Origin: Hydrangea macrophylla
Taxonomy: Eukaryota; Streptophyta; Magnoliopsida; Cornales; Hydrangeaceae
Length of the DNA stretch: 64,000 nt
Assembly (NCBI GenBank): GCA_033977485.1
Contig: CM066993.1
Coordinates: forward strand, 71,030,864-71,094,863
Direction: 5' to 3'
The stretch's first letter is position 1; the number at the start of each line of letters is the position of its first letter. A program made the position numbers and the translations under genes. The notes under the pieces are model-generated. The model was not told the DNA's origin and searched no databases. It was given only the letters and a program-made list of their open reading frames with translations. Of the stretch, positions 4,189 to 58,809 are shown one piece after another.

Positions 4189-4736
4189 TAAATGAAAGGG
4201 GTGGACCTAGAATTTGTATTTTTGTTTTTTTTAAGGGGGGACATTAGGGTTCGGGGGCAACAACCCCGAGTAATTTTTTTGGGGGTAGAAACACTATAAT
4301 TTTAAATTTTAAAAACTGCGTGGTTATTCTTTGTATTTGACATATAGTTAGTTGACTTGTGAGGGTTAAATAACATGATAATTCAAAGACAAACTTATCT
4401 TTCCATAGCTATTTAAAAAAAAATGTATTCATATGCTTAATTTCTTTTCTTTTATTCCTCAAATTTTATCAATAAAATAAAGAATTCTTAATATGTTTAA
4501 AATAAATATCTTGAGGGTCTTAAACACCCGAGGTTAATTGAGTAATAAGATGTTTGTGAGAGTGAAAGTTATGAAAACAAAATGATATTTTTGAGTTTAG
4601 AAGTGGTACATTTAAAACATTTTTAGAGGGACACAAATGCATATAATATAAAATACAGAGGGTGTAGAAATAAAATTCGAAAGTTGAGGGGGTGGGGTTG
4701 GGCCCACCCTAGACCCCACATGGCTCCACCTTTAAT
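4189..4736. mobile_element. Degraded insertion, probably DNA-transposon debris
   Basis: The block begins GGGGTGGACCTAGAA and ends near CCCCACATGGCTCCACC, so its two ends are loosely inverted. It interrupts a dispersed repeat rich in AAGCTC/GAGCTC words that is found on both sides (about 3990-4188 and 4737-5095). No coding capacity is visible and no target duplication could be fixed. Confidence 0.3.
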
Positions 4737-6655: not shown

Positions 6656-7390
6656 CAGCACCACATTTCCTCATTTTTCCTTTTTAATATATATACATCT
6701 ATATATATATATACATGTACATCAATATATATATGTATATATGTATATGTGTACAGTTGTTTTCATTAAAAATGTCTTGGCATGAATGTGATGTTTGAAC
6801 TTGGGAGTTTTTTTTTAACTGATTTCTCTGTTGAGTTTGTGAAATCTGGTTAAATTGTCTGGTTTAGGAAAAAAAAAACCTTTTTTTTTTGCTTTCACTA
6901 TTCTCCTTTTGGGGGAACATTTTGGCCAAAATTGGTTGGACATTTGGTTGAAGGAATCAAATTGATGGTTTTTTGCTTTGAGCTGCAAAAGTTTCTTTTG
7001 CATATGAAAGTGTTTGTTTCGGTTTGGGTCTGAATTTTTTTTTTCCTTAAAGCTTTTCGGATGCGGCATTGTGTCTTTGTTCCTCATTGGTGTTTGTCAG
7101 TTTAGGGTTTGGATCAGAGGGTTTTGTGTGATTCTATCCTGATTTTTAGGGAAGTTGAAGAAAGGTAATTTTTTTTAAGGTTAATTAGTTGTCTAATTTT
7201 GTGATTGAATGTTGGGTTTGTGATATTACTTCAATTTATGTTGTTGTAGGTTAACTATAAAGATCAGGACATTTATATCAGAATTTTCAAGGGGTTGAGC
7301 TCTGCTGTTTGCTACCACTGTTAGTACTTCTCTTTTGTAATAATGTTGAAGTTTTAGTTTTAGTTTATTCAAAGTTAATACATTTTCTCT

Positions 7391-7450
7391 GGGATAAAAA
7401 TTACTAATTTGAGATGATGGGGGATAAAAATTACTAATTTGAGATGATGG
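7391..7450 (+). repeat. Exact 30-base tandem duplication
   Basis: The 30-base unit beginning GGGATAAAAATTACTA is present twice, head to tail and identical, at 7391-7420 and 7421-7450. It lies in the presumed leader intron of the NT-C2 gene. Confidence 0.9.
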
Positions 7451-8363
7451 GGTGCCTACAATGTTTATTATGTTTTTAGCTACACTGAGATGTGTATGGA
7501 AGCTGTTCTTATGATCTGCTTTTGTAGAAATGCATTTATGCAAATGTCTTCAAAAATTTTTCGAATAAGGGGGATTGTTGAAACATTTGAGTGTGGTTAT
7601 CTTGCTAGCTTACTTCTTCGCATTTCATTTTGCAGATGTTATCTTGGTTACATTCTCAAATCCTTACTCACAGATAGTAAATTTAGGCATTAAGAAAGGG
7701 AATTATATATTGGACTATTTTAACTGTAGTGTGTCCCCTGGTTTTAATGGTAGATTGGTCAGTAGTGAAGATGCTCGACTCTCAAGTTCAATTATCCTGA
7801 AACAAATCTATTTGACTTTTCCTTTTCAGCAGTGCATTGACTTTCAAGTTCAATTATCCTGATTTAAATAAATTTGAATATTCCTTTTCTGCATCCAAGT
7901 GGAGTTTACTTTTGAAACTGCAGTGTGATATGCTCTAAGACGACAACCTTAATAGAAATTAATCATGTTGCTAGGATGTGCTCTTGTGTGTGTCTTGTCC
8001 TCGTCATTTACTTTTTACCAGACCGTTCAACAATATCTGACTTTGACATGATACATATTGGTCTCTTTGATATTCAGTTCGATTACTTGTTGAAGAACCG
8101 AAAAAAAATTGACTTTCTAAGATTTACCATGAAGCAGCTTGGTGTATGTGTATGTGTATGTATGTAGTTTATTTGCATCAACGTAAATTGTTCGTTGCAG
8201 AAATCTGTGGAAATCGTAATGTTAGTCATGGGGCATTGTATAGTAAACAAAAGTTTTAGTCTTTCTGAGATTTTGCTGTTGTTCTTGGCTCATTGTGCAT
8301 TGGCTACCTTTATGTGTTAGCAATAGTTATCTATGACTTTCTTTTGCATGATGACAAGTGCAG

Positions 8364-8559
8364 AAGCTATGTCCTCGCCTTGACGCTCATCATCTAAGAG
8401 ATACTACTTTGTTTCTCACGTCTTCATGTGCTATTAACTCATCAAAAATATAATATTGAACTTCTTGTAGAAATGATACAGGGGTTTTCGGGGTGATTTT
8501 GAATAAATGGGAGTGGAAACCTGAGGTTTGGAAGCCGATGGTAGATTGATTCTGTAGTA
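8364..8559 (+). promoter_or_regulatory. Putative second leader exon with five mini-uORFs
   Basis: An acceptor-like TGCAG ends at 8363. Between it and the start codon at 8560 lie five tiny frames, each closed before the main start: 8369-8383, 8426-8437, 8473-8496, 8507-8524 and 8538-8549. If this stretch is in the mature leader, translation of the main frame would need leaky scanning or reinitiation. The exon boundaries are inferred from splice-like signals only. Confidence 0.35.
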
Positions 8560-8637
8560 ATGTCGAGGATTGCAAAGTGGAAGCTTGAGAAGACCAAAGT
8601 CAAAGTGGTATTTCGGCTGCAATTTCATGCTACACAT
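8560..8637 (+). CDS. NT-C2 gene, coding exon 1
   Basis: This exon encodes the first 26 residues, beginning [18 protein letters not shown], the conserved first strands of the NT-C2 domain. The ATG at 8560 is chosen because this opening matches the family and upstream frames are closed. It ends in phase 0 before GTATGT. Confidence 0.9.
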
Positions 8638-9470
8638 GTATGTTTTCTCTTTATGTTGTTAAATGTTTTTTTACTTTTCACATCCCTCCTTATTTGTTTG
8701 TTCTTTTGGACTTGTGTAAATCTGTTGATAATGAATTTTCTTTCATGTGGAAATCTACCAACACACTCAGACAGCATTTTGTGGTTGCCTATGTATGTGA
8801 AAACCCACTTTTGAATTTTTTTAATTTTTTTTTATCATGTTGATAGAGTCACGTAGCTCTTGTGAGTTGGAAGTTCATTATAGTTTCCAATATATAAAAG
8901 TGTATTGTAACAATAATATAAATGGATGCAAAGTCCACCTATGCTGCATGGCTAGTCTATCTCTAGCATTACAATTAATATTATGTGATTCACAACACAC
9001 TTTATTATTTCAAATTAATCCTGGTCTCAATTCAAATTTGTTCATCTAACTCATTAATCGTAATAAATTGATTACACAATTAATACTAGTATATTTCAAA
9101 CACAAAAAAATTAATATTAGTATCAGGAAAGATAAACAATGATTGTAGTTCAATCATGGAAAAAATGTTTTGATGACTCTTCGGAAATTAAAATCCTACG
9201 ACCAAATTATGTACTCCTTTGGGCGACTATTACTGAATAGCCTCTTATAGCTCGTTGCATTAGCTGGGAAAACTGCATAAATTCCATGTAATTAGAATAA
9301 ACCTTATAGATTCACAATAATTCAATTTCAACCAACCTAAGGAACGGGTTAGAGAACTTCTCTCTCTAGTTTTTCTAGAGAGAGAGAGAGGATGGTGTTT
9401 TATTTTGTGACATAGCCCAGCGCCGCTTCCCCCCCCCACCCTCTGGTTTCCTGCGACCAGCCCCTCCCCT

Positions 9471-9519
<49 letters not shown>

Positions 9520-12500
9520 GTGCCATGTTTTGTCCCAGTCCAAATAAGGGTCTGTTTGGCTCCTCCGCTTCTTCTGTGAAGCTTTTCCCCTTCCTTTGTG
9601 AAGGTTGTTTTCCTTTTCTCGCATGGCTTCTCCTTGGGTTCAAGATGGTGGATGTTGCCCAAACCGGTCTTGCAACAGTAGATTGGCTTTTTGGGCTTCA
9701 TTGGGTTATGATTGGTGGCTTTGGAGATCTCTTCTACAGCTTTGTTGCTTTCCATGGTGCAACTCTTGCTATCATGGAAGCTTTTCAAGCAACTTCGGTT
9801 GCCCCCTTTGGTGAAGCTTCTGCACTTGTTTGGACTTGGCGTTGTGCCGTCTTCTTGCTTTGGGCGGTCTCTATCATCTACAGTTTTGAAGTTGTCCTGG
9901 GTTCTGGATCTCTCTACGCAGCGGTCCTTGTGGCGCAGTGGTGGATTCCTCATGCATCGGACGGAGTTTTTTCTGTTGTCGCTTATGCTTCCTTATCTAT
10001 TGTACCCTTGGTTGTTTTGCTTTTGCTTGTTCTTTTATTTTCTTTTGTTGTTTGTTTGGTTTTCTTTGTAAGCATTGTTTTTCATTAATGAAATTCCGGT
10101 TCTTCAGCAAAAAAAAAAAAAAGAAAAAAAAAAGAAAGAATAAAGTTTATAGCAAATCAATGTTGTTATTGACTAGTTGTCATCTTTGCATGATTGAATT
10201 TAAAATTTCCCTTTCCTTTTTGTGATTCAGATTCCTCAAAGTGGATGGGATAAGTTATTTATATCTTTTATTCCTGCGGATTCTGGAAAGGCAACATCAA
10301 AGACAACCAAAGCTAATGTGAGAAATGGAACCTGCAAATGGGGAGATCCTATCTATGAAACAACAAGACTTCTCCAAGATGCCCAAAGCAAGCAATATGA
10401 TGACAAGCTATACACATTTGTTGTGGGCATGGTACTTTTTACCCTTATTCATTTGTGCCAGTTCTAACCTTTAAGGCTCTGTTTGGTTCATGGATTTAGT
10501 GAGGGAAAGGAAAGGAAACACACACTAAGGAAAACACTTTCTTTCTTTCTTTAACAAGAAAAGCAGTGTGCAAAATAGGAAGGAAAAGATAATATAGTGA
10601 TTATAAATTAAAATTTTGAAGTTTGTTACTTCTCACCCTTTTTTCTTAAGTTACAATCGTATTTTGAAATTTTTTTTAGGGTTTAATGTTATTTAACTTA
10701 TTTGAGCATGGAGAAAAACACAAGGGAACTAGTTTTCCTTGTATTATTTTCCTTCTCTAAATTTGCAAATTGACCAAAGCCGAAATGTATCCCCCCCACA
10801 CCCACACCATCCAAAATTTGTCACACCCAAACCCGCAACACCCCCCTCCCCCCCCTTCCAACTCAATTAATTCATCACATGGGAAAACAATTCCCCTTTA
10901 TACTCCATTTTATTTTCCACAATGAAGCTTCCAACCATCTCTCCACATATTATAATATGTAGAATGCATGCAATATGATATGCATGCTCAATAAATCGCG
11001 TGCTGTAAACATGTATGCTTCTACATGTAACGATGTGTCATGATTATCATATACATGCATTTTTTTTTAACGCGTCGTATTCGTCCCCCGTACCAAAAGG
11101 CTCTAACCTTAGTGCAAATGATCTTCACATCAAATTTTCATGCTCCTTATTTGCACGCATTTTTTCCTACTCCCTTGTTACCAATGAAACAAACAACTTC
11201 ACTCACTCATAACCGGGATTTACTATGTCTCTGTCCTTACTCTTATTTGTGTCAGGGTTCATCAAGGTCCAGCGTCCTTGGTGAGGCTAGCATCAACCTT
11301 GCTGATTATGCTGATGCACAGAAGCCTTCTGCTGTTGCGCTGCCTCTTAACGGATGTAACTCTGGAACTACATTACATGTAATAAACTTCAGGACTTGAT
11401 ATATTATACCCTATAAGTTCTCGCAGCAACATTTTATGCAAAGCCAAACGATTTTGTAGCCACTAAGAACCTGTTTGGATTAGCTTATTTGGGACCGACA
11501 ATCACTTGTAGGGTATATTTAGGGATTTGAGTATGTTTGGCAAAAACTTTTTTTCACAGTTTTTTTTTTGGTTAAAAAAAGAAAAGAAAAGAAAAGAAAA
11601 GAAAAATTGTTCCACATTTACAGCTAAAACAACAGCTTATATCTAAAGCAGCAAATTGCTGCAAAAAATTTCTTATTTCCACAACAATGCCAGTCGGGGC
11701 TCTAAATGGTCCTTTAAACCCATGCACACAATATGATCTGAACTGTGTGGTACATGTCCAATATGCCTGATATTGGGAATGTACTTGGCAGACTTGTTTT
11801 CAGAAGAAGAGATGAACTTTTCTTCGTTCATTTGAAATCTTTTGGACACCTAACTTCTCTATTTCATGGATATCTGAAAAATGAGTGTATGCCTTTGTTT
11901 ACTACAGAGTTTGGTGGCCAACTTTTTAATCCATGTATCTTGATATTTGAGGATTGGGAACTTGATACAATTGACCTAAGAAGCTCTGACCTGCACGCTA
12001 TTCATGTACCTGAATCCACTTGTAAACAGCTTTTTTGAACCATGCATTGACTGTTGCAATTCTAAAAATGTTTTTTTCTTTCTTATTCTATGTTTTTTTT
12101 TTCAAAGATATGTATTGTCTAAATAATTTGATTGACAGTCAGATTATCTAATAACTCGTCTTTTCAATAATGTGTGTGTATATATGTGTGTGTGTGTGTG
12201 CGCGCGCGCGTGCGTATCAATGAAAGATTAAATGGTTTGTATGTAGCGTCCATTCACCTAGTTCACACTTGATTTGCTTATTCACTTCCACCGTGAACTA
12301 TTTCATAATTCCCATATAATTTTGTATTGACTGTGATCTGGTGCCAGGTCACAATCCAGCTGCTAACTTCTAAAACTGGATTCAGGTATCACTATATGAC
12401 CTTTAAACTGCACGCATTTGATATTATGATCATCAAACTTAAGATCTGTATTCTTACAGAGAGTTTGAGCAGCAGAGAGAACTCAGAGAGAGGGGATTGC

Positions 12501-37795: not shown

Positions 37796-38675
37796 TGTTG
37801 AAAAGAAGTGTATATTTAAAATTGGAGGGAAAGGTTGAGAGAAAAAACTTTGAAATTTGGTTTTGAGTTTTGTCTTATTCACAAACTAACACAAATGATA
37901 TTTTTGCTTGTCCCACATAGGAAAATTAGAGGAAGTGGGAAGGACATATATAAGTGGAGGTTGGAGGAAGGGTTGGGCCCCTTGGGGGTACCAAGTTTTG
38001 TGAAGGGGAAGGACCTAGGCCCAATTGGGTTTACCACAAAACACACACACGCGCGCGCGCCGCCGCCGCCCCGCTCCGGGTTTGGGTGTGGGTGTGGGTG
38101 TGGGTGTGGGTGTGGATGTGGATCCTACTCCTATATACAAAGTTTATTTGGAAAATAAATTTCTTTTTTAATTAAAAAGAGTTTAATTTCAGTTGGAGAC
38201 CAAGTCTCCCCACCAACCCCTCCACGTTTTTTCCTCCAGATTTTTTCTCCAACGTTTCCAGACTTCTCTCCACGTTCTGCAACGTTAACTTTCCCAACGT
38301 TCACTTTTCCAACGTTCAGAATATCTTCTTTATATATACACAAACTGCTTTCATCAAAATACACAGTTTTACAGAGAGAAAAAGAGTTACAGAATTTTAA
38401 TACACAGTTTCATATACTGTTTCTGAGCAACGATTTCTGAAAGGGTGTGGGTTTTCCGATCTTCCTCCGTGCAAGGATTTTCGAGACAGAGGCGATTTCT
38501 GGGCTGCTTTATCCTGGGGACGTCGTGGCCTTCATCCGAACGAACTGCTTGCACAACTTGGGCAGAGCCGCGAAGCGTCTTAAAGAGAGCGACTAAGTCC
38601 GCGACTCATCCCAAGAAAAACGTCAAAGGCTACTGTTATTGGTAAAATTGTTCCTTTTTAGTTTCTGCAGTAACA
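37796..38675 (+). repeat. 5' LTR of the long-LTR copia element
   Basis: It begins TGTTGAAAAGAAG and ends TGCAGTAACA. It contains a (CA/GC)n and GGGTGT microsatellite at about 38041-38120. Confidence 0.92.
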
Positions 38676-38700: not shown

Positions 38701-41700
38701 ATGGAATCTTCAATGCTCTCTGTTACCCATGACCTCAACAAACCCTTCAAATTTGAGGGCCTTCACTTTAAACGGTGGAGGATGAAAATGATGTTTTTCT
38801 TAACTACGAAAAAATTGCAATCTGTTTGTCTTTCTGAAAAACCCACTCTTTCTGAAAATCCCACTGTTGCTCAAATCAGAGAGTCTGACACATGGAATGA
38901 AAATGATTTTCTTTGCAAAAACTATATTTTAAATGGGCTCTCTGACAGTCTTTATGACTATTATGCAAACTGTGATTCTGCAAAAAAAGTTTGGGATGCC
39001 CTTCAGAAAAAATATGACACTGAAGAAGATGGAGCAAAGAAATTTGCAGTCAGCCGTTATTTGAAATACCAAATGACGGATGACAAATCTGTTGAAGCTC
39101 AATCCCATGAGCTGCAACAAATTGCTCATGAGATAATTTCTGAGGGCATGGATTTAAATGATCAGTTTCAAGTTGCTGTCATTATTGACAAGCTTCCCCC
39201 AAGTTGGAAAGATTTCAAAAATATTTTGAGACACAAAACCAAAGAATTTTCATTGGAAAGTTTGATTACTCGCCTTCGTATTGAGGATGAGGCAAGAAAA
39301 CAAGATTTAAAAGAACAGGTTCTTGTTGTTTCCAACAACAAGAAACCTCAAAATTTTTCTAAAAACAAAACCTCTGTTGTTCTGAAACCACCTTCAAAAA
39401 CCATGAAGTTTCAAAATCGAAATCAGAACAAGAACCGCAACAACAACAAGAATTAGAATCCGAAGCCAAATCAGAATAGGAACATACCCCCCTCAGGAAT
39501 AAATGAAGCTGGACTGTTTGTTTGCTACAATTGTGGTAAACCAGGTCATATGGCTCGAAACTGTAGGAATCAACGACGAGTTGCTCCCCAAGCAAATCTT
39601 GCAGAAGAGCAGCTCGTTGCTATGATTTCTGAGGTCAATATTGTTGGTGGATCCGAGGGGTGGTGGGTAGACACTGGCGCCTCTCGCCATGTTTGCTATG
39701 ACCGTGACATGTTCAAATCCTATTCTGAAGCTAAGGACAAGAAAGTGCTGTTGGGTGATTCCCACACCACTACTGTTGCTGGTATTGGGGAGGTTGAATT
39801 GAAGTTTACTTCTGGAAAGACTGTCATTTTGAAGGATGTCTTGCACACTCCAGAAATGAGGAAAAATCTTGTTTCAGGCTATCTTCTCAACAAGGCTGGA
39901 TTTACTCAAACTATTGGGGCTGATCTTTTTACTTTGACTAAGAGTGGAGTGTTTGTTGGAAAGGGTTATGCAACTGAGGGCATGTTTAAATTGAATGTTG
40001 ATTTTAATAAAGTTTCTTCTTTTGCTTACATGTTGTGTTCTTTTAATGTTTGGCATGCTAGATTATGTCATGTGAATAAAAGGCTTGTGAAAAATATGAG
40101 TAGTCTAGGATATATTCCACAATTATCTTTAAATGAATTTGACAAATGTGAATTTTGTAGCCAAGCAAAAATCACTAAAATACCACATAAATCTGTCACT
40201 AGGGAATCTGAACCTCTTGAATTAATTCATTCAGATATTTGTGAATATGAAGGAATTTTAACTAGAAATGGAAAAAGGTATTTTATTACTTTTATTGATG
40301 ATAGCTCAAATTATTCATTTGTTTATCTTATGAAAAATAAAAGTGAAGCCATTGACATGTTCAAAATTTTCCTAAATGAGATTGAAAATCAATTTAATAG
40401 AAAAATTAAAAGATTTCGTAGTGACAGAGGACATGAATATGATTCTGATGAATTTATTGCTTTATATAATATTAATGGAATCATTCATGAAAAAACTGCC
40501 CCTTACTCCCCTGAAATGAATGGAAAAGCTGAAAGAAAAAATAGAACTTTTACTGAATTAGTAGTTGCTATTTTATTAAATTCAGGGGCAGCTTCTCATT
40601 GGTGGGGGGAAATATTATTAACTGTTTGTCATGTATTAAATAGAGTTCCTAACTCTAAAACTAATATTTCCCCTTATGAAATTTGGAAAAGAAGAAAACC
40701 AAATGTGGATTATTTTAGAACATGGGGTTGTTTGGCATATGTTAGAATTCCAGACCCTAAAAGGTCCAAATTAGCTAGTAGAGCTTATGAATGTGTTTTT
40801 ATTGGTTATGCTATTAATAGTAAGGCTTACAGATTTTATGACTTAAAGAATCATGTTATAATTGAATCTAGTGATGTTGATTTTTTCGAAAATAAATTTC
40901 CTTTTAAATTTAAAAATAGTGGGGGTTCAACATCATATGATATGCCTAGATTAGTAGAACCAAACGAATATGAACTAGAACCTAGAAAAAGTAAAAGAGC
41001 CCGAATCGCGAAAGATTTTGGGACCGACTTTTATACCTACAACTTAGAGGAGGATCCTAACACCCTCCAAGAAGCTTTGACTTCTATAGATGCTGATTTA
41101 TGGCAAGAAGCTATAAATGATGAAATGGAATCATTGGAATCAAATAAAACTTGGCACTTAGTAGATCTTCCACCTGGTTGTAAGACAATAGGTTGCAAAT
41201 GGATTCTTAAAAAGAAATTGAAACCCGATGGCACGATAGATAAATATAAGGCACGTCTTGTAGCTAAGGGTTATAGACAAAGAGAAAATATTGATTTCTT
41301 TGATACTTATTCACCTGTCACTAGAATTACTTCTATTCGTGTACTATTTGCTTTAGCTGCTATTCATGATTTAGTAGTACACCAAATGGATGTTAAAACG
41401 GCTTTTTTAAATGGTGAATTAGAAGAAGAGATTTATATGGACCAACCTGAAGGTTTTATTATTTTTGGTCAAGAAAATAAAATTTGCAAATTGGATAAAT
41501 CTCTTTATGGTTTGAAACAAGCTCCTAAACAATGGCATGATAAATTTGATAGTTTAGTCATCTCAAATGGTTTTAAAATAAATGAAAGTGACAAGTGTAT
41601 TTATTACAAATTTAAAAACAATACTTGCACTATTATTTGCTTATATGTGGATGACTTACTTATTTTTGGATCAAATATTCATGTCATTAATGAAGTTAAA

Positions 41701-42597
41701 TCTTTCTTATGTGCCAATTTTAATACGAAAGATTTAGGAGAAGCTAGTGTAATTCTTGGAATTAATATTACTAGGTCAGAAAAGGGACTTTCTTTAGATC
41801 AATCTCATTACATTGAGAAGATTCTAAAGAAATACAATTACTTTAACTGTAAACCAGCATGTACTCCATATGACCCTAGTGTAAAATTGTTCAAGAACAC
41901 TGGTGACAGTGTTAGACAAACTGAGTATGCGAGCATCATTGGTAGCCTCCGTTATGCTACTGATTGCACTAGGCCAGATATAGCTTATGCTGTTGGAGTA
42001 CTATGTAGGTTTACTAGTAGACCTAGTATGGAGCATTGGCATGCTATTGAAAGGGTCATGCGTTACCTAAAAAGGACGATGAACCTAAAATTACACTATC
42101 AGAAGTTTCCCGCTGTCCTTGAAGGATATAGCGATGCTGATTGGAATACCCTATCAGATGACTCCAAGGCCACTAGTGGATACATTTTTTGTATTGCTGG
42201 AGGCGCAGTTTCATGGAAGTCTAAGAAACAGACTATTTTGGCTCAGTCCACTATGGAGTCAGAGATGATAGCACTAGCTACAGCTAGTGAGGAAGCAGGT
42301 TGGCTGAGAAATCTGCTATCAGATACCCCTTTATGGGAGAGACCGATACCAGCTGTCCTAATCCACTGTGATAGTACCGCGGCTATTGCAAAAGTTGAGA
42401 ACCGTTACTATAACGGCAAGAAGCGACAAATACGTCGCAAGCACAGCACTATTAGAGAGTTTCTCTCTTCTGGAGCTGTAAGAGTGGATTATGTACGGTC
42501 TGAGGAGAACTTGACTGATCCTTTGACGAAAGGACTAGCACGAGAGAAGGTTTGTAAAACCTCGAAAGGGATGGGACTAAAGCCCTTAGATAATTGA
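38701..42597 (+). pseudogene. Copia gag-pol with a single in-frame TAG
   Basis: The frame opens at 38701 (MESSMLSVTH), is closed by one TAG at 39454-39456 in the basic, asparagine-rich tail of gag, and then stays open in the same frame to 42597. After the stop come a CCHC knuckle [14 protein letters not shown] (39523-39564), protease VDTGASRHV, integrase with HSDICEY, RSDRGHE and [15 protein letters not shown], reverse transcriptase with YVDD (41643-41654), and RNase H with SDADWN and HCDSTAAI. All domains look complete. Either the element is recently inactivated, or the stop is read through at some rate; nothing here shows the latter. Confidence 0.88.
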
Positions 42598-43146: not shown

Positions 43147-44042
43147 TGTTGAAAAGAAGTGTATATTTAAAATTGGAGGGAAAGGTTGAGAGAAAAAACT
43201 TTGAAATTTGGTTTTGAGTTTTGTCTTATTCACAAACTAACCCAAATGATATTTTTGCTTGTCCCACATAGGAAAATTAGAGGAAGTGGGAAGGACATAT
43301 ATAAGTGGAGGTTGGAGGAAGGGTTGGGCCCCTTGGGGGTACCAAGTTTTGTGAAGGGGAAGGATCTAGGCCCAATTGGGTTTACCACAAAACACACACG
43401 CGCGCGCCGCCGCCGCCGGGCCGGGCTTGGGCTTGGGCTTGGGTGTGGGTGTGGATGTGGATGTGGATGTGGATGTGGATCCTACTCCTATATATCTTTT
43501 TATACAAAGTTTATTTGGAAAATAAATTTCTTTTTTAATTAAAAAGAGTTTAATTTCAGTTGGAGACCAAGTCTCCCCACCAACCCCTCCACGTTTTTTC
43601 CTCCAGATTTTTTCTCCAACGTTTCCAGACTTCTCTCCACGTTCTGCAACGTTAACTTTTCCAACGTTCACTTTTCCAACGTTCAGAATATCTTCTTTAT
43701 ATATACACAAACTGCTTTCATCAAAATACACAGTTTTACAGAGAGAAAAAGAGTTACAGAATTTTAATACACAGTTTCATATACTGTTTCTGAGCAACGA
43801 TTTCTGAAAGGGTGTGGGTTTTCCGATCTTCCTCCGTGCAAGGATTTTCGAGACAGAGGCGATTTCTGGGCTGCTTTATCTTGGGGACGTTGTGGCCTTC
43901 ATCCGAACGAACTGCTTGCACAACTTGGGCAGAGCCGCGAAGCGTCTTAAAGAGAGCGACTAAGTCCGCGACTCATCCCAAGAAAAACGTCAAAGGCTAC
44001 TGTTATTGGTAAAATTGTTCCTTTTTAGTTTCTGCAGTAACA
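43147..44042 (+). repeat. 3' LTR of the long-LTR copia element
   Basis: 896 bases, partner of 37796-38675, with a longer GTGGAT-type microsatellite at about 43432-43480. Confidence 0.92.
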
Positions 44043-52548: not shown

Positions 52549-53216
52549 CCCCTTGTCACGCCCCGACGTAACATAAATATGGAAAGCGTTTAATTTCCTT
52601 TATGGACTCGTAGGTCGCGACAGTTTGAAGGATCGATTTTGTCCCAAACGTCGAACAACATAAAACCATAATCAGAGTAGTGCAATCAAAGCTTACAAAC
52701 ATTTTTCTAACTTATTACATATTACAGTACGGGGTCTACTAAGGCACAAGCCGCCTTAAAACAAAACAATATCTATCGTCTATTACAATCATCCTTAGTA
52801 CCAAACAGTTCATGAATTAAAGTATAGAATATTAATAACAGTTTTATCTTCCAAAAGCAACCGTTCTCAGTTTGCATAGTCATAAGGCCTCGCGTAGTCA
52901 TAACCTGAAAAGCCTGAACACGAATGTCCAGGGCGCATCAACGTCGTCAGCTTCAAGAAGCTGGTGAGTATTAAAAACATAACTTTGAATGTAACACATA
53001 CTCATTTACCATTTTCCAATTCTCATTTAATTCAACAAGTTTATATTAAAGCAAAGAGTTCATTTTATGAAACAAGCACAATATTATTTAAAAGATATAA
53101 TTCACATATATGTGACCGTGTATGAGAACAATGCACCATCTCATTTTGTCGACTCTTTTCTCTCGACAAAACCCAACAACCCACTATCACACACCAGTAT
53201 TGATATTTGAAATACT

Positions 53217-53580
53217 CTGATAGCCACACTTTAGCACAGGGGTGCCAGGGAATGTCCAGTTTGCCTCACACTTTGGTCCGGGGTACCAGGGAGTGTCCAA
53301 TGCCTCACACTTTAATACCTAATCCGCCATGCAAATACCGGAGGAACCCTTACGCAGTATCCAGACTCGGGTATCAGGGAGTGTCCGTAAGCCACACTTT
53401 ATCACTACCATGGGTGCCAGAGAATGTCCAAGTTCGGCTTCACACACTTTGACGCTACCATGGTTGTTAGGGAGTGTCCAGTTTTGCCACCGTCGCATTT
53501 CAAAGACACCCTCGCCGCAATCTCAATCACAACACACTTTGATACTCACTTACCAGGGAGTGTCCACAACACAATCTCAA
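53217..53580. repeat. Degenerate tandem repeats in LTR B
   Basis: The phrase CCAGGGAGTGTCC or close variants, followed by a CACACTTT segment, recurs about six times (near 53246, 53287, 53373, 53416, 53466 and 53551) with irregular spacing of about 40-90 bases. A different tandem repeat occupies the matching part of LTR C. Confidence 0.75.
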
Positions 53581-53884
53581 CTGCACTCACTATGCCACAC
53601 TGACCATTACTCTTTTCCATACTAACTAACATTCACACTCACCATGCATGTACAACTGACTCCACATGTATGTCATGAAACTTTAAACATAAAGTAAATC
53701 ACTGAAATATAGAAACAACGTGGGTACGGGGATTGATAAGTCATAATACAACGTTTTAATCGTCCAAACATACCCAAATAGGATTCTGTTTTAGTAAATT
53801 TCCCAAACGGAGCTTTAACAGTTCATAAAATATCACCCAAACAGTTCCTTAACACAAGACAAGCAAAAACTAGAAACTGCCAGA

Positions 53885-54136
53885 AGTCGCGCGCGCGGGC
53901 CGCTCGCACGAGGGGTCGCTCGCGCGATATGCCCAATATTCCTTTTCTTTATTAAAGCTTTTCCATATGTCAGAATATAGGGAGATCACGCGTGCGAATC
54001 GCTCGCGCGATCTGCTTAATTTTTGTTTTCTTTTAAAAAACGTTTTCTGTCTGCTTGGAACCAGCCACCTCGCGCACGCGGGTCGCTTGCGCGAGGGGTC
54101 GCTCACGCAGTCCGCTCGCGCGATCGCGCGCACGAG
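53885..54136. repeat. G+C-rich word array in LTR B
   Basis: Three clusters (about 53887-53928, 53985-54011 and 54068-54136) hold variants of CGCTCGCGCGA, such as CGCGCGCGCGGG, CGCTTGCGCGAG, CACGCGTGCGA and CGATCGCGCGC. Word starts are about 14-16 bases apart, in an otherwise AT-rich LTR. Many contain the self-complementary core TCGCGCGA or CGCGCG. Confidence 0.7.
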
Positions 54137-55559
54137 TTTTTGCAGAGTCTTCATCTTCTTCGTCAGAACTGCTCTGTTTCAGTTTTAAGGGGTCTTTTTG
54201 ACCCATTTTCAAATCCGGAAGCAAATAGGGCATGTAATATATGAATTTCTTTGTTTTTCAATAAGGATTAAGAATATGAAATCAATTTAACATAATTCAA
54301 ACCATAACTCTCAAATTTTATGAAAAATTAAAAGTTGTCAAAACTTAATTTCTTATATACTTTTTCATATGAACAAATTGGGTTCTAAAACTTTAAACAT
54401 AGCATATATGTTGTATATCTTTCATAATCATCTCTAAAAACGGATTTTGATCAAGTTTGAAAAAATCTTGATTTCAAAACTATGGAGGTCCAAACGTAAA
54501 ATCAACAATGGAGATTAAAAATTACATACACCCACGTCGTAACTAAGCATGAATTACATTTAAGAGTGAGTTTAAAATACTCACAGAGATTAAGAGTGTA
54601 GAGATTGTTGAGAAAGACAACCAATTTAAGAAATCCAATTTCAAACTTTGGCTATGGTGGCCCAAGCTCTCTCTCTAAAATTATGTAGAAGCTCTCTAAA
54701 ACTCTCTCTAAACTCTCTGAATTTTATGTTTTGTAATGAGCAAAACCAGTGAAATAGAGAGAGGTGTATAAGGTTTATATAGGCATCAAGAACTTGGCCT
54801 CCAAGTTCCTTCTCAAAGGCTCAACAAATTGGGATTTTTTTGTTTCTCAATTAAAAACATATACATAGATGTATACATACGTATACTCATCTCCACAGTT
54901 TAACCAAGAGCCATGTATAGGTATGTAGGGGTCAACTTGTGGGTGTTTGGCAAATCTAGCTTGTGGCATAAGAATACACACACACAAAGCATTCCCAAAC
55001 AAACTCAACCCAATCATTGCTTGCCATAAATAGAAATAAAGCAAATGTCATGTCTTTGCTTTACGAAGATTCCAGAATCTGTGGAATCCCAATGCGGCGC
55101 AGACATTTTTGAACATAAACTGGTATTTTCACGGCGCGGTGTTCACCACAAAATACAGAAAATTCATTTTTGTGTAAGAATTGATTTCCCGGTTTTATAA
55201 AAATACAAGTTGAGTCAAGAGAAATTATTTTCACCATCTTTGAAATACAGATTTTGAAATCCACACGGATATTACTAACTTTTGTAAAATCACAGTTTGA
55301 CCCAATAAGAAAATTCAATATGAATTAAAACAAGTATTAAGGTTTAACACATGAAAATTGAAATTAAATTAAAGCAGACAATTATTAAATATAAATATGA
55401 CAAATGAAAAATTACAACTAATTTAATGAAATGCAGGTTGTTACACCCCTAATATAGCAATCCAACAAACTAGGAAAGCTAGTATAGCCCTATGAGATCC
55501 CATGAGGGAGGACCCCTACATCTATCCTATCATGCCACGGATTAGGGGAAAAGCCGATC

Positions 55560-56369
55560 TTAAATCTCGGGTCCATCATACTCCACAACAACTCCCAAAT
55601 CTCCTACATCAGCGGCCATGTCAGCCTGGGCTGCATCAAATGCGGCTGCAAGTGCCTCAGCCTGTACCATAGCCTGTGCCAACTCTGGTGCTCCAATCTC
55701 AAATCCATGGGGATATGCAGCCATCTCTGCAGCCCACTCAGCTGCCAGCTGTGCTATAACTCCTCCTGGTAAGACTGGTACTACTGCATCATCACCTGCA
55801 TCATCGTCTGCAGCTACCTCCTCTTCCCCTATCGGATAACCCTCTGCAACTACAATATCTATGCCAACTAGCATGTCCATACCGGCTGGGTCCACGGGGT
55901 CCTCCTCCTCTGGATCATACTCCGGCTCCTCGTCATCGGTGTCCTCGTCCTCTTCATCCTCCATCTCCTCATCTGCATCCTCTGGCTCATCATCGCCATC
56001 GCTCTCATCATCATCCTCCGGATCCTCATCTGCTGGGGGTGCATCAGCCATGTCCTCTTCTGGTGGGGGTGGAGGTGCTGCTCTAACCTCTGCAAGTAGA
56101 ACCTGGTACGAAGAACGGTCTCGTAACATCAGTAGAGAATCCTCCTCGACGCGTTTGAAGGTCTCCTTGCGGTAGATCATCTCCTGACGTATCACTTCTG
56201 GGTCCTGGGTCCCAAATCTCTGCTGCTCAATCCGCATGTCTCGCTTTGTCTCTGCAATAGCCCTCTGCCTAACCTTCCAGGCATAGTACTCTGGGTCTGC
56301 TGGCGCAATACTCCTCTCATACACATAGTGTCCTCCGAACTCGTCTGGAACGAACAGCAGCGGTGCCAT
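55560..56369 (-). CDS. Acidic orphan ORF, 269 residues, in gag position
   Basis: An intact frame begins MAPLLFVPDEFGG about 120 bases after the primer binding site and ends with TAA. Residues 1-95 look like a globular, charged alpha-helical domain (YYAWKVRQRAIAETKRDMRI, RQEMIYRKETFKRVEEDS). Residues about 98-165 are a proline cluster followed by an almost uninterrupted Asp/Glu tract, and the rest is alanine-rich and acidic. There is no CCHC knuckle, transmembrane segment or recognisable gag motif. It could be a diverged gag fragment, an element-borne accessory protein or an acquired host segment. Function unknown. Confidence 0.6.
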   Translation of the reverse strand: MAPLLFVPDEFGGHYVYERSIAPADPEYYAWKVRQRAIAETKRDMRIEQQRFGTQDPEVIRQEMIYRKETFKRVEEDSLLMLRDRSSYQVLLAEVRAAPPPPPEEDMADAPPADEDPEDDDESDGDDEPEDADEEMEDEEDEDTDDEEPEYDPEEEDPVDPAGMDMLVGIDIVVAEGYPIGEEEVAADDDAGDDAVVPVLPGGVIAQLAAEWAAEMAAYPHGFEIGAPELAQAMVQAEALAAAFDAAQADMAADVGDLGVVVEYDGPEI

Positions 56370-56487: not shown

Positions 56488-56500
56488 GGCTCTGATACCA
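56488..56500 (-). other. Primer binding site of the gypsy-like element
   Basis: The minus strand reads TGGTATCAGAGCC, seven bases from the LTR end, the usual position in chromovirus-type gypsy elements. Confidence 0.8.
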
Positions 56501-57209
56501 AAAATCCTGTCACGCCCCGGAACGGCAAAAATAGAGAAAAATAAATTTCCTTTTTGGGTCCAAAGGCAGCGACGGGTGAAGTCACATGATTGTCCACACC
56601 ACGCAGTACTAAGCAATAAGAAGTAATAGTGTAACAACAATGAAGTCTAGGTTCTGATCACAACGTATCACAAGGTCAACAGAAGTTACTAACTATTACA
56701 TATCAGAGTCTCGAATCAAATATAAGGCAGCGGAAGTACAAATGCCAAGGCAACATATGCCTGACTACAAAAAGATTCTAAAACGGTAAAGACGATTAGC
56801 TATAATTCTAGTCTAGTCTTCAGTTGGCATAAAGGTAGTCATCGGCGTAGTAGTCTTCTTCGGTCTGACCTCCGTCGGAGAAATCCTCCACAGGGACTCC
56901 GTCACCGGCATAGTAGTCCTCTCCTGCAGGCCCTTCACCTGTATAGTCATAACCAGGGTGCGCTGGAACGTAGAAATGTCCAGCGGCATAAACGCCGTCA
57001 GCTTAATGAAAGCTGAGTGAGTTAGATACTAACAGGGTATCAACTATTGATATTATTACAAGTTATAAGTAATAACCAAATTAGAATTCAGTAAGGGTAA
57101 CTCCTTTACATCAAACCGATGATCCGATTACTGACATCCTATTCATTTTAAGATCGACAATGCGACATGATAGGGGAACAGACTCGACAATAGTTCAACT
57201 CTATAACAC

Positions 57210-57545
57210 ACCATTGCTCATCCACCGCTTTTAAGAACATATGCACAGTTCACCGCATGTCATGGATACCACGTTAGTCCATCCTCCGCTTTTAAGAACA
57301 TATGCACAGTCCACCGCATGTCAGGGATATAACGCTTTAAACAACAGTACATCATTCTATGCCACGACTTAGCGACGTCTACCAGTGATCACGGTCCACC
57401 GCATGTCATAGACACCTTCGTCTGTCTACCGCTTTTAAGAACATATGATTAGATCATCTGGCTATCTTAGGGCAAATGGTCCGGTTCACCGCAAGTCATA
57501 GACACCTTCGTCTGTCTACCGCTTTTAAGAACATATGATCGACCA
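57210..57545. repeat. Tandem repeats in LTR C
   Basis: The phrase CCGCTTTTAAGAACATATG recurs four times (near 57225, 57287, 57427 and 57519), each followed or preceded by CACCGCATGTCATGGATA-type sequence. The units are 60-140 bases apart and imperfect. Confidence 0.8.
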
Positions 57546-57862
57546 AAGCCCGCCCACGCAAATTTCCCGAATCTTAGCAAACCTACTTAAGTTCAACTCT
57601 ATCACCGATACATGACAATCCCAATGTGGCCCGACTACTCTGAATGAAATGAACGTCAACTCCAAAGGATTCACGACTATTCCGTTATCTAACATTATAA
57701 ACATTATCCGTTAATCTTGTTATTACTACGATCCTACGCTGCATTAACTCGTTATCATGTCTGTATTACAATAATAAAGCATGCTGGGAAATACTGAACA
57801 GTAAATAAACAACTAAACAGTTATTACATTATCTAAACAAGTAAAACAGTAAACTGTAACTG

Positions 57863-58074
57863 CCAATCGATTGGTATAGATGTCAATCGATTGGTATAAA
57901 AGTGGCATCAATCGATTGGAAGAAGGTTCAATCGATTGGTATAAAAGTAGTGTCAATCGATTGATAAAAAGTTCAATCGATTGGATCACAATCCATGTCA
58001 ATCGATTGCATAAAGTGTCAATCGATTGGAACATGAAAGATGTCAATCGATTGGTATAGATGTCAATCGATTGA
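57863..58074. repeat. Palindromic word array CAATCGATTG, ten perfect copies
   Basis: The perfect ten-base palindrome starts at 57864, 57884, 57909, 57929, 57954, 57974, 57999, 58019, 58044 and 58064. The distances alternate 20, 25, 20, 25, 20, 25, 20, 25, 20, so the array is five 45-base units with two words each. No word has a mismatch, while the 10- and 15-base spacers between words vary freely. The preceding base is T or C and the following one mostly G. It lies in LTR C. Confidence 0.95.
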
Positions 58075-58204
58075 CACTTCGTCTTCTTCACAGAGAAGAC
58101 TGCCCAGCAACATATAAACGGGAATACATGGTTTCTTCTCCATTTCTTCATTCAAGCATATTCTAACACCAATATAAAGCTACCAAGTAAGTTTAAAACT
58201 CACC

Positions 58205-58440
58205 TTAGACATTAAGGGCGTGTTTGGTTGTGTGAAATGAAGCTTGGAGCTTCAATGGTGGTCTCCATCTCTCTCTCTCTAGTTCTCTGTCTTCTCTCTT
58301 CTCCTTCTCCTTCTTTCTTCTTTCTGATCTTCTCCTCTTCTTCCTTCTTGTCTCAGTCCATGGATGTGTGTGTGTGAGTGTATGAATACATGTATATATG
58401 TGTGTATATATATGTGTGTTTATATATACATAACACACAC
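58205..58440 (-). repeat. (CT)n and (GT/TA)n microsatellites in LTR C
   Basis: CT-rich (58262-58350) and GT/TA-rich (58366-58440) simple sequence separates the two palindrome clusters. Confidence 0.8.
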
Positions 58441-58571
58441 ACAAACACTCCTTCTCACTCTCTCTGATTTCTGTAAACAGAAATCCGCCCAAAATGGGCT
58501 GGTATATATAAAGGGAATGTGTTCACGTGGCCTCTCCCCAGGCAGAGCAAAAGAATCTGCCCAGCTGCCTT

Positions 58572-58683
58572 CAATCGATTGGCATAAGTGTCAATCGATT
58601 GATACAATCAATTGATTGGTATAAAGTTCAATCGATTGGTATCCAAAATAAGGCAATCGATTGGAAAACTTGTCAATCGATTG
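58572..58683. repeat. Second CAATCGATTG cluster in LTR C
   Basis: Words start at 58572, 58592, 58609 (CAATTGATTG, one mismatch), 58629, 58654 and 58674. Distances are 20, 17, 20, 25 and 20, again mostly 20/25. This cluster is near the transcription-proximal end of the LTR on the minus strand. Confidence 0.9.
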
Positions 58684-58809
58684 GTATCCAAAATATACCA
58701 AGGGTAAGGCCAAGCTCATACAAGTATAAAAAGAAACATACAGGGTCTTATTCACATAATATATTACAAAAATACAGGGTATTACAATATAAAAGGACAA
58801 TGTCGTACT

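Follow-up and report, generated by a model that had tools for sequence, protein, structure and literature searches.

The locus examined here raises the question of what keeps many identical copies of one short palindrome in an ordered array within the long terminal repeat (LTR) of a plant retrotransposon. The window, by which we mean the whole stretch of 64,000 nucleotides of Hydrangea macrophylla DNA that was analysed (contig CM066993.1, positions 71,030,864 to 71,094,863), contains the 10-letter palindrome CAATCGATTG in ten exact copies starting at 57864, 57884, 57909, 57929, 57954, 57974, 57999, 58019, 58044 and 58064. Exact recounting confirms the ten mismatch-free words reported in the original prediction, as well as their start-to-start distances of 20, 25, 20, 25, 20, 25, 20, 25 and 20 bp. 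The spacers between units have a pairwise identity of just 51%, and under a simple independence model the probability of finding ten intact words, had they decayed as the spacers did, is about 10^-16. With up to one mismatch allowed, CAATCGATTG occurs 19 times in the window against an expectation of 2.70, a count reached by none of 100 shuffles. Every word contains a CpG, as its two central bases are CG.

The element lies on the minus strand and carries a second array ~500 bp from the first, both of which had escaped the original prediction. The array of ten exact words at 20/25 alternation is here termed array B (57864..58073, minus strand); array A (58572..58683, minus strand) comprises five exact words together with one-mismatch variants and lies 5' of a putative TATA box. 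The LTR that contains them, with 15 exact words in all, is 2,279 bp long (56508..58786, minus strand; TGTAATACCC...CGGGGCGTGACA); its ends were located and 39 further copies were aligned over it. Read along the minus strand, array A is followed by the TATA box CCTTTATATATACC (58501..58514, at ~58510), a predicted splice donor (AG|GTGAGT, 58198..58205, with the site at ~58204), array B, a candidate splice acceptor (TAACTCACTCAG|C, that is, TAACTCACTCAG then C; 57012..57024, with the site at 57013), the LTR end, the primer binding site TGGTATCAGAGC (56489..56500, minus strand, just inside the 5' LTR), which we take to match initiator tRNA-Met, and an additional 5' open reading frame (5' ORF).

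Parts of this layout recur in other copies. In the window LTR, 71 bp separate the start of the last array A word from that of TATATATA downstream; the distance from that word to the TATA box is 71-73 bp in the window family and in a second LTR family represented by L009, and a TATA-like site lies at most 120 bp from array A in 39 of 40 copies. The donor sequence AGGTGAGT was found between the first and last word in all 40 copies, and the donor precedes the first array B word by 132 bp in all four LTRs read for this (window, L050, L067 and L009). Judged from the predicted donor and acceptor, array B possibly lies within a leader intron. The donor stretch was not found in the LTR of a third family, represented by L013, where array B is consequently not intronic on that model; this argues against an intron in all families.

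The window copy has no pol genes. In L009, however, protease (6912-7505), reverse transcriptase (RT) with RNase H (7570-8631) and integrase (9144-9743, with the rve match below cut-off) follow one another in an order that identifies the element as Ty3/gypsy, and an integrase C-terminus like that of L009 occurs, at 81-91% identity, in the flanks of 15 of the 39 other copies (loci belonging to one copy being merged by place). The original assignment of the LTR to a gypsy-like element is thus upheld. Sireviruses have the copia pol order, with integrase before RT; membership of that group was rejected, as RT precedes integrase in L009. An affiliation with Tekay is suggested by the 5' ORF and the overall arrangement. 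The integrase C-terminus matches Pfam SH3_Tf2-1 and gives no Chromo match at E up to 0.01; by eye, the tail presumably resembles a type II chromodomain. Matches to the LTR are mostly paired 8.2-8.4 kb apart, with one pair at 11.2 kb, and on contig C1 the arrays occur in pairs of pairs ~8.4 kb apart.

Several further features of this region are recorded as side observations. A short open frame rich in Y, D and G, detected by eye in the 3' part of the window LTR (~56990-56820, minus strand), ends in TATGCCAACTGA, and both L009 and the neighbouring LTR (TATGCAAACTGA, 52878-52867) have similar endings. A second repeat within the window LTR (57188-57540) is built from CTTTTAAGAACATATG and CACCGCATGTCAT units (plus strand), which CTCTTAAAAGCGGTGA words in the L009 LTR resemble. 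Elsewhere in the window, direct repeats of CAACGTTCACTTTYC at 38280-38318 and 43647-43685 flank a copia-like ORF (39457-42597), perhaps within its LTRs.

We compared spacing among 40 LTRs, the window copy included, taken from 3,522 first-look candidates; these share 95-100% identity with the window over the query, so that the family is seen as it is near the window copy. Among the 330 distances between neighbouring exact words of array B, 305 are 19-21 or 25 bp and the other 25 are 44-46 or 65 bp, which are sums of 19-21 and 25; none is 22-24 bp. The commonest of 185 distances in array A are 20 bp (103), 17 bp (42) and 25 bp (24), and two are 22 bp. Exact words per copy range from 6 to 17 in array B and from 3 to 10 in array A, the ten-word 19-20/25 alternation is present in 10 of the 40 copies, and distances identical to those of the window occur in three, the window counted. 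Spacing is therefore conserved but not frozen, and units come and go. Fixed 20/25 spacing had been proposed originally; the spacing is indeed shared by other copies and by the two other LTR families read, rather than being peculiar to one copy, but it is not strict, given that only a quarter of copies show the ten-word alternation and that array A uses mainly 20, 17 and 25 bp.

A decayed form of the word is CAATTGATTG. In 42 LTRs, we counted 54 near-words against 622 exact words. CpG transitions account for 25 of the near-words, and in 15 one outer C or G has become T or A; in 40 of the 54, a single C has thus turned into T or a single G into A, either at the CpG or at an outer base, a spectrum of ordinary loss in copies. 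Only one of the 54 is another palindrome, which indicates that the sequence, rather than palindromy, is kept.

Change along the transposing lineage can be separated from decay after insertion in elements that retain both LTRs, of which 11 were used. Columns were counted at sites where both LTRs of an element agree, leaving out those readable in fewer than eight of the 11 elements; the L009/L010 pair, which belongs to the other family, and L054/L073, a possible pair 50 kb apart, were kept out of the set. We found that 5 of 147 word columns are variable among the elements at insertion, compared with 69 of 162 spacer columns and 296 of 1,945 columns in the rest of the LTR. Differences that arose between the two LTRs of an element after insertion number 14/1,533 in words, 11/1,719 in spacers and 208/21,336 in the rest. 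The contrast is significant for words versus spacers (P = 7e-7) and for words versus the rest (P = 0.008, both by Fisher's test), these P values being approximate because columns are not fully independent. In the non-array LTR outside the search query, 164 of 591 columns are variable, with 97/6,449 within-pair differences (P = 0.003 against words).

These comparisons need to be read with regard to how the copies were chosen. The ranking of matches used LTR positions outside the arrays, so that the non-array part looks quieter, and the columns labelled as words are those that the window copy has intact, a choice mildly in favour of words. At LTR positions 1080-1619, which belong to no array, variable columns are as few as in the words (0-7%), partly because the search query lay there. 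Six of the 14 word decays are held by one of two elements on contig C11. When it is dropped, variable columns number 5/130 in words, 55/137 in spacers and 285/1,932 in the rest, and within-pair differences 8/1,393, 10/1,557 and 175/19,390, respectively; words still differ from spacers (P = 0.001), but the difference from the rest is no longer significant (P = 0.15). Conservation of the words is thus firm relative to the spacers and weaker relative to the rest of the LTR.

Once inserted, words decay at 0.91%, the rest of the LTR at 0.97% and the part outside the query at 1.50% (P = 0.09 for words against the last). In an alternative within-pair count, which includes L009/L010 and takes words intact in either LTR, differences number 17/1,832 in words, 24/2,021 in spacers and 306/23,248 in the rest; split by context, words have 9/365 against 75/1,551 for non-words at CpG and 8/1,458 against 255/23,718 at other sites, that is, rates about half of those of non-words. 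There may accordingly be some protection of words after insertion, with words decaying somewhat more slowly. Taken together, this looks like purifying selection on the words in the transposing lineage, with little or none once an element has inserted. The same contrast is seen when the 39 other copies are compared with the window copy: word sites differ at 11/1,913 (array A) and 31/3,700 (array B), or 0.58-0.84%; spacer sites at 395/2,265 (A) and 346/4,011 (B), or 8.6-17.4%; and other LTR sites at 4,477/75,789, or 5.9%. Equal divergence of words and spacers was looked for in the aligned copies and was not found, in agreement with the earlier proposal that the words are conserved and the spacers free.

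Between families, the register of the arrays persists. When the L009 and L013 families are compared with the window, array spacers are 48-74% identical (36/61, 46/96, 46/62 and 61/110 sites), other LTR parts 55-86% and words 98% (49/50, 86/88, 49/50 and 98/100 sites). With mutated slots counted, distances in array B are 20, 25, 20, 25, 20, 25, 20, 25 and 21 bp in L013, which has ten slots, and 19, 25, 20, 20, 25, 20, 25 and 20 bp in L009; over all slots, 14 of 17 are intact in L009 and 13 of 16 in L013.

The word is abundant. In the 2.22-Gb genome (19 contigs), CAATCGATTG occurs 189,157 times, against 1,095 for the reversed control, and pairs at exactly 20 bp and 25 bp number 49,920 and 23,046, with none of either in the controls. 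Of the first 100 places listed, some of them in duplicated stretches of contig C1, three lie more than 1 kb from any other. As a separate observation, arrays in the stretch C1:104963-1461771 of this assembly (G000) recur ~503.6 kb further on and then again in inverted order, which suggests that the beginning of the contig is duplicated, either segmentally or in the assembly. The 20-bp pair was found in seven stretches of a 257-Gb prokaryote collection, which we take as chance background, and no array pairs were found in viral contigs.

Palindromic motif arrays are known from the LTRs of copia Sireviruses; here they are found in a gypsy LTR, as two arrays flanking the TATA box. In the text available to us, Bousios et al. 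(2010; PMC2829016) describe the palindromic repeated motifs (RM boxes) of Sirevirus LTRs as Sirevirus-specific within their Ty1/copia sample. Like the words of the window element, RM boxes are palindromes that occur eight or more times in an element and cluster in the LTR; in most Sireviruses they stand upstream of a TATA box. They differ in that Sireviruses are Ty1/copia and the window element Ty3/gypsy, and in that the two arrays here flank the TATA box with 20/25 spacing and place 10 of the 15 words downstream of it. The closest match in that text is tobacco Tnd-1, with eight copies of ACAATCGATTGT in its LTR at 100% identity, a motif that contains the same 10-bp core as CAATCGATTG. Tnd-1 is also one of two Sireviruses there without a conserved TATA box, and the only one of 13 listed motifs without the CGG-CCG signature. 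Among the matches listed in a full-text search for the word, this was the only paper on retrotransposons by title.

Palindrome arrays in gypsy LTRs were described in no title listed for the Tekay and chromovirus literature searched, a scope that left most subscription papers and preprints outside. Sunflower Tekay chromoviruses share with the window element both Ty3/gypsy membership and an additional 5' ORF, which, in the portion seen of PMC11728184, is present in a subgroup, is conserved from copy to copy and shows no sequence similarity to its counterparts in grasses; the main text of that paper contains no occurrence of 'palindrom'. Further comparison literature, likewise seen in part, comprised PMC12844716 and PMC5311732. 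The word also resembles HD-Zip sites, which are bound by dimeric proteins and with which it shares CAAT ... ATTG half-sites. HD-Zip I sites, CAAT(A/T)ATTG, are 9-bp pseudopalindromes with one central base (PMC3060862, in part), so that the HD-Zip site (CAATNATTG) does not fit CAATCGATTG, which has two central bases, CG.

Which kind of agent could hold these words in place? We give an even chance to the reading that the arrays are putative promoter-flanking binding sites for a host, probably dimeric, sequence-specific protein, which the element would use to drive or license its transcription. The reading draws on the conservation of words relative to spacers between elements, the decay of words after insertion and the geometry shared by the families read. 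A host dimer would recognise the word at the promoter of the element, where array A lies ~60 bp upstream of the TATA box; array B would lie in the leader, which is presumed to be transcribed, and perhaps within an intron. Loss of sites would leave an element with fewer descendants, so that the lineage that spreads would keep its words near-identical as its spacers diverge and its units are duplicated or lost, 45 bp (20+25) at a time. Some features count against this reading. An activator would not usually have sites placed, as array B is, downstream of the promoter, and the distances are out of helical phase (20 bp corresponds to 1.90 turns, 25 bp to 2.38 and 17 bp to 1.62). That words contrast less with the rest of the LTR than with spacers, and that L013 lacks the donor, matters for how strong selection is judged to be and for the intron, but leaves the choice of binder unaffected.

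It is unlikely, in our view, that the binder is instead a protein of the element itself, which would attach to the arrays and remove silencing from its own copies in the manner of VANC. The arrays do take the form of VANC targets, namely short-word arrays in non-coding DNA (PMC5735166, in part), and words differ between related VANDAL families (PMC5735166 and PMC10398659, both in part). VANDALs, however, are DNA transposons with a known binder, their word YAGTATTAY is not a palindrome, and CAATCGATTG is common to diverged families. The best candidate for such a protein is the product of the 5' ORF (55560..56369, minus strand; 269 codons, with an acidic tail), located 5' of the expected position of gag. 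It is open in eight non-window copies, at 300-323 codons and with the same N-terminus, and its pN/pS is 0.32 over the first 95 codons in nine copies (single-change codons only, no correction); the CpG in each word would also suit an anti-silencing target. The same N-terminus is present in 9 of 13 window-family 5' junctions, but in the other four (L017, L022, L035 and L043) the ORF is shifted, shorter or different. The ORF has no Pfam match and no DNA-binding domain was found in it, protein searches returned no homologue at E up to 0.001, and its single-sequence structure model is poor (pLDDT 49). Between the window and L009 families the protein is barely alignable (20% identity, E = 4.3), yet the word is identical. 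Because the word is kept across diverged families and its core occurs in a copia element of tobacco, and because the 5' ORF has diverged between families that share it, a host factor is favoured over an element-encoded one. The original prediction of an element-specific array is weakened on the same grounds; of its interpretation as a whole, the gypsy LTR, the kept words with free spacers and the shared spacing stand, and strict spacing does not.

A neighbouring solo LTR (52554..55445, minus strand, with AGGGG on both sides) has been weighed with this alternative, since it carries CG-rich clusters in the corresponding place, as if recognition had switched. It is related to the array LTR and shares the order of TATA box, donor-like site, acceptor-like site and LTR end; no CAATCGATTG was found in it. 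Between donor and acceptor lie three CG-rich clusters (~54140-53880), in which TCGCGCGAGCGA occurs twice without mismatch and TCGCGCGA three times; they are far less regular than the CAATCGATTG arrays. In the genome, ATCGCGCGAGCGA occurs 7,495 + 7,294 = 14,789 times on both strands, with 0 and 0 for the control, and same-strand pairs ~7 kb apart are frequent among 100 places listed. It is a doubtful but conceivable extension that families each carry arrays of their own word (CAATCGATTG or ATCGCGCGAGCGA) in the corresponding leader position, where a dimer encoded by the element or by the host would read them, and diverge by word switching, which would amount to a VANC-like licensing or anti-silencing code in the gypsy elements of this plant.

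We consider a role at the level of RNA, in which the palindromes pair in the transcript and give rise to double-stranded RNA or small RNAs, to be improbable as well. Array B folds at -85.6 kcal/mol (z = -12.7) and array A at -42.3 kcal/mol (z = -4.6), but any repeated palindrome would fold likewise, and a self-folding hairpin for each word was rejected, as a single word forms none. A double-stranded RNA or small-RNA role has reportedly been discussed for the LTR palindromes of maize Sireviruses (Genome Research, 2016). In three copia families of maize, LTR regions rich in palindromes are hotspots of small-RNA mapping, according to the available part of PMC5311732. Pairing, however, would permit joint drift to other words, and near-words are instead predominantly the single C-to-T or G-to-A changes counted above (40/54).

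Slightly less probable is that the arrays are a footprint of silencing, with the word recognised by a repressor or methylation guide of the host; very high copy number and a CpG in each word are consistent with it, but elements should lose such sites, and the spreading lineage keeps them, unless they serve a dual use. An ordinary decaying tandem repeat without function is highly improbable and was rejected: 45-bp unit turnover is real, as the range of 6 to 17 exact words in array B attests, but the contrast between words and spacers (5/147 against 69/162 variable columns) and the register that survives between families are not those of such a repeat.

Paired LTRs allow selection on a cis element to be tested with a neutral clock and a lineage clock that are contained in one element. 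At 189,157 copies in one genome, the word constitutes a large sink for any protein that binds it. A gypsy element here and a tobacco copia element share the palindrome core, which points to a factor of the host that may be exploited by parasites unrelated to each other, and the identity of the binder would make the escape of gypsy elements from host control, or their recruitment of it, directly testable.
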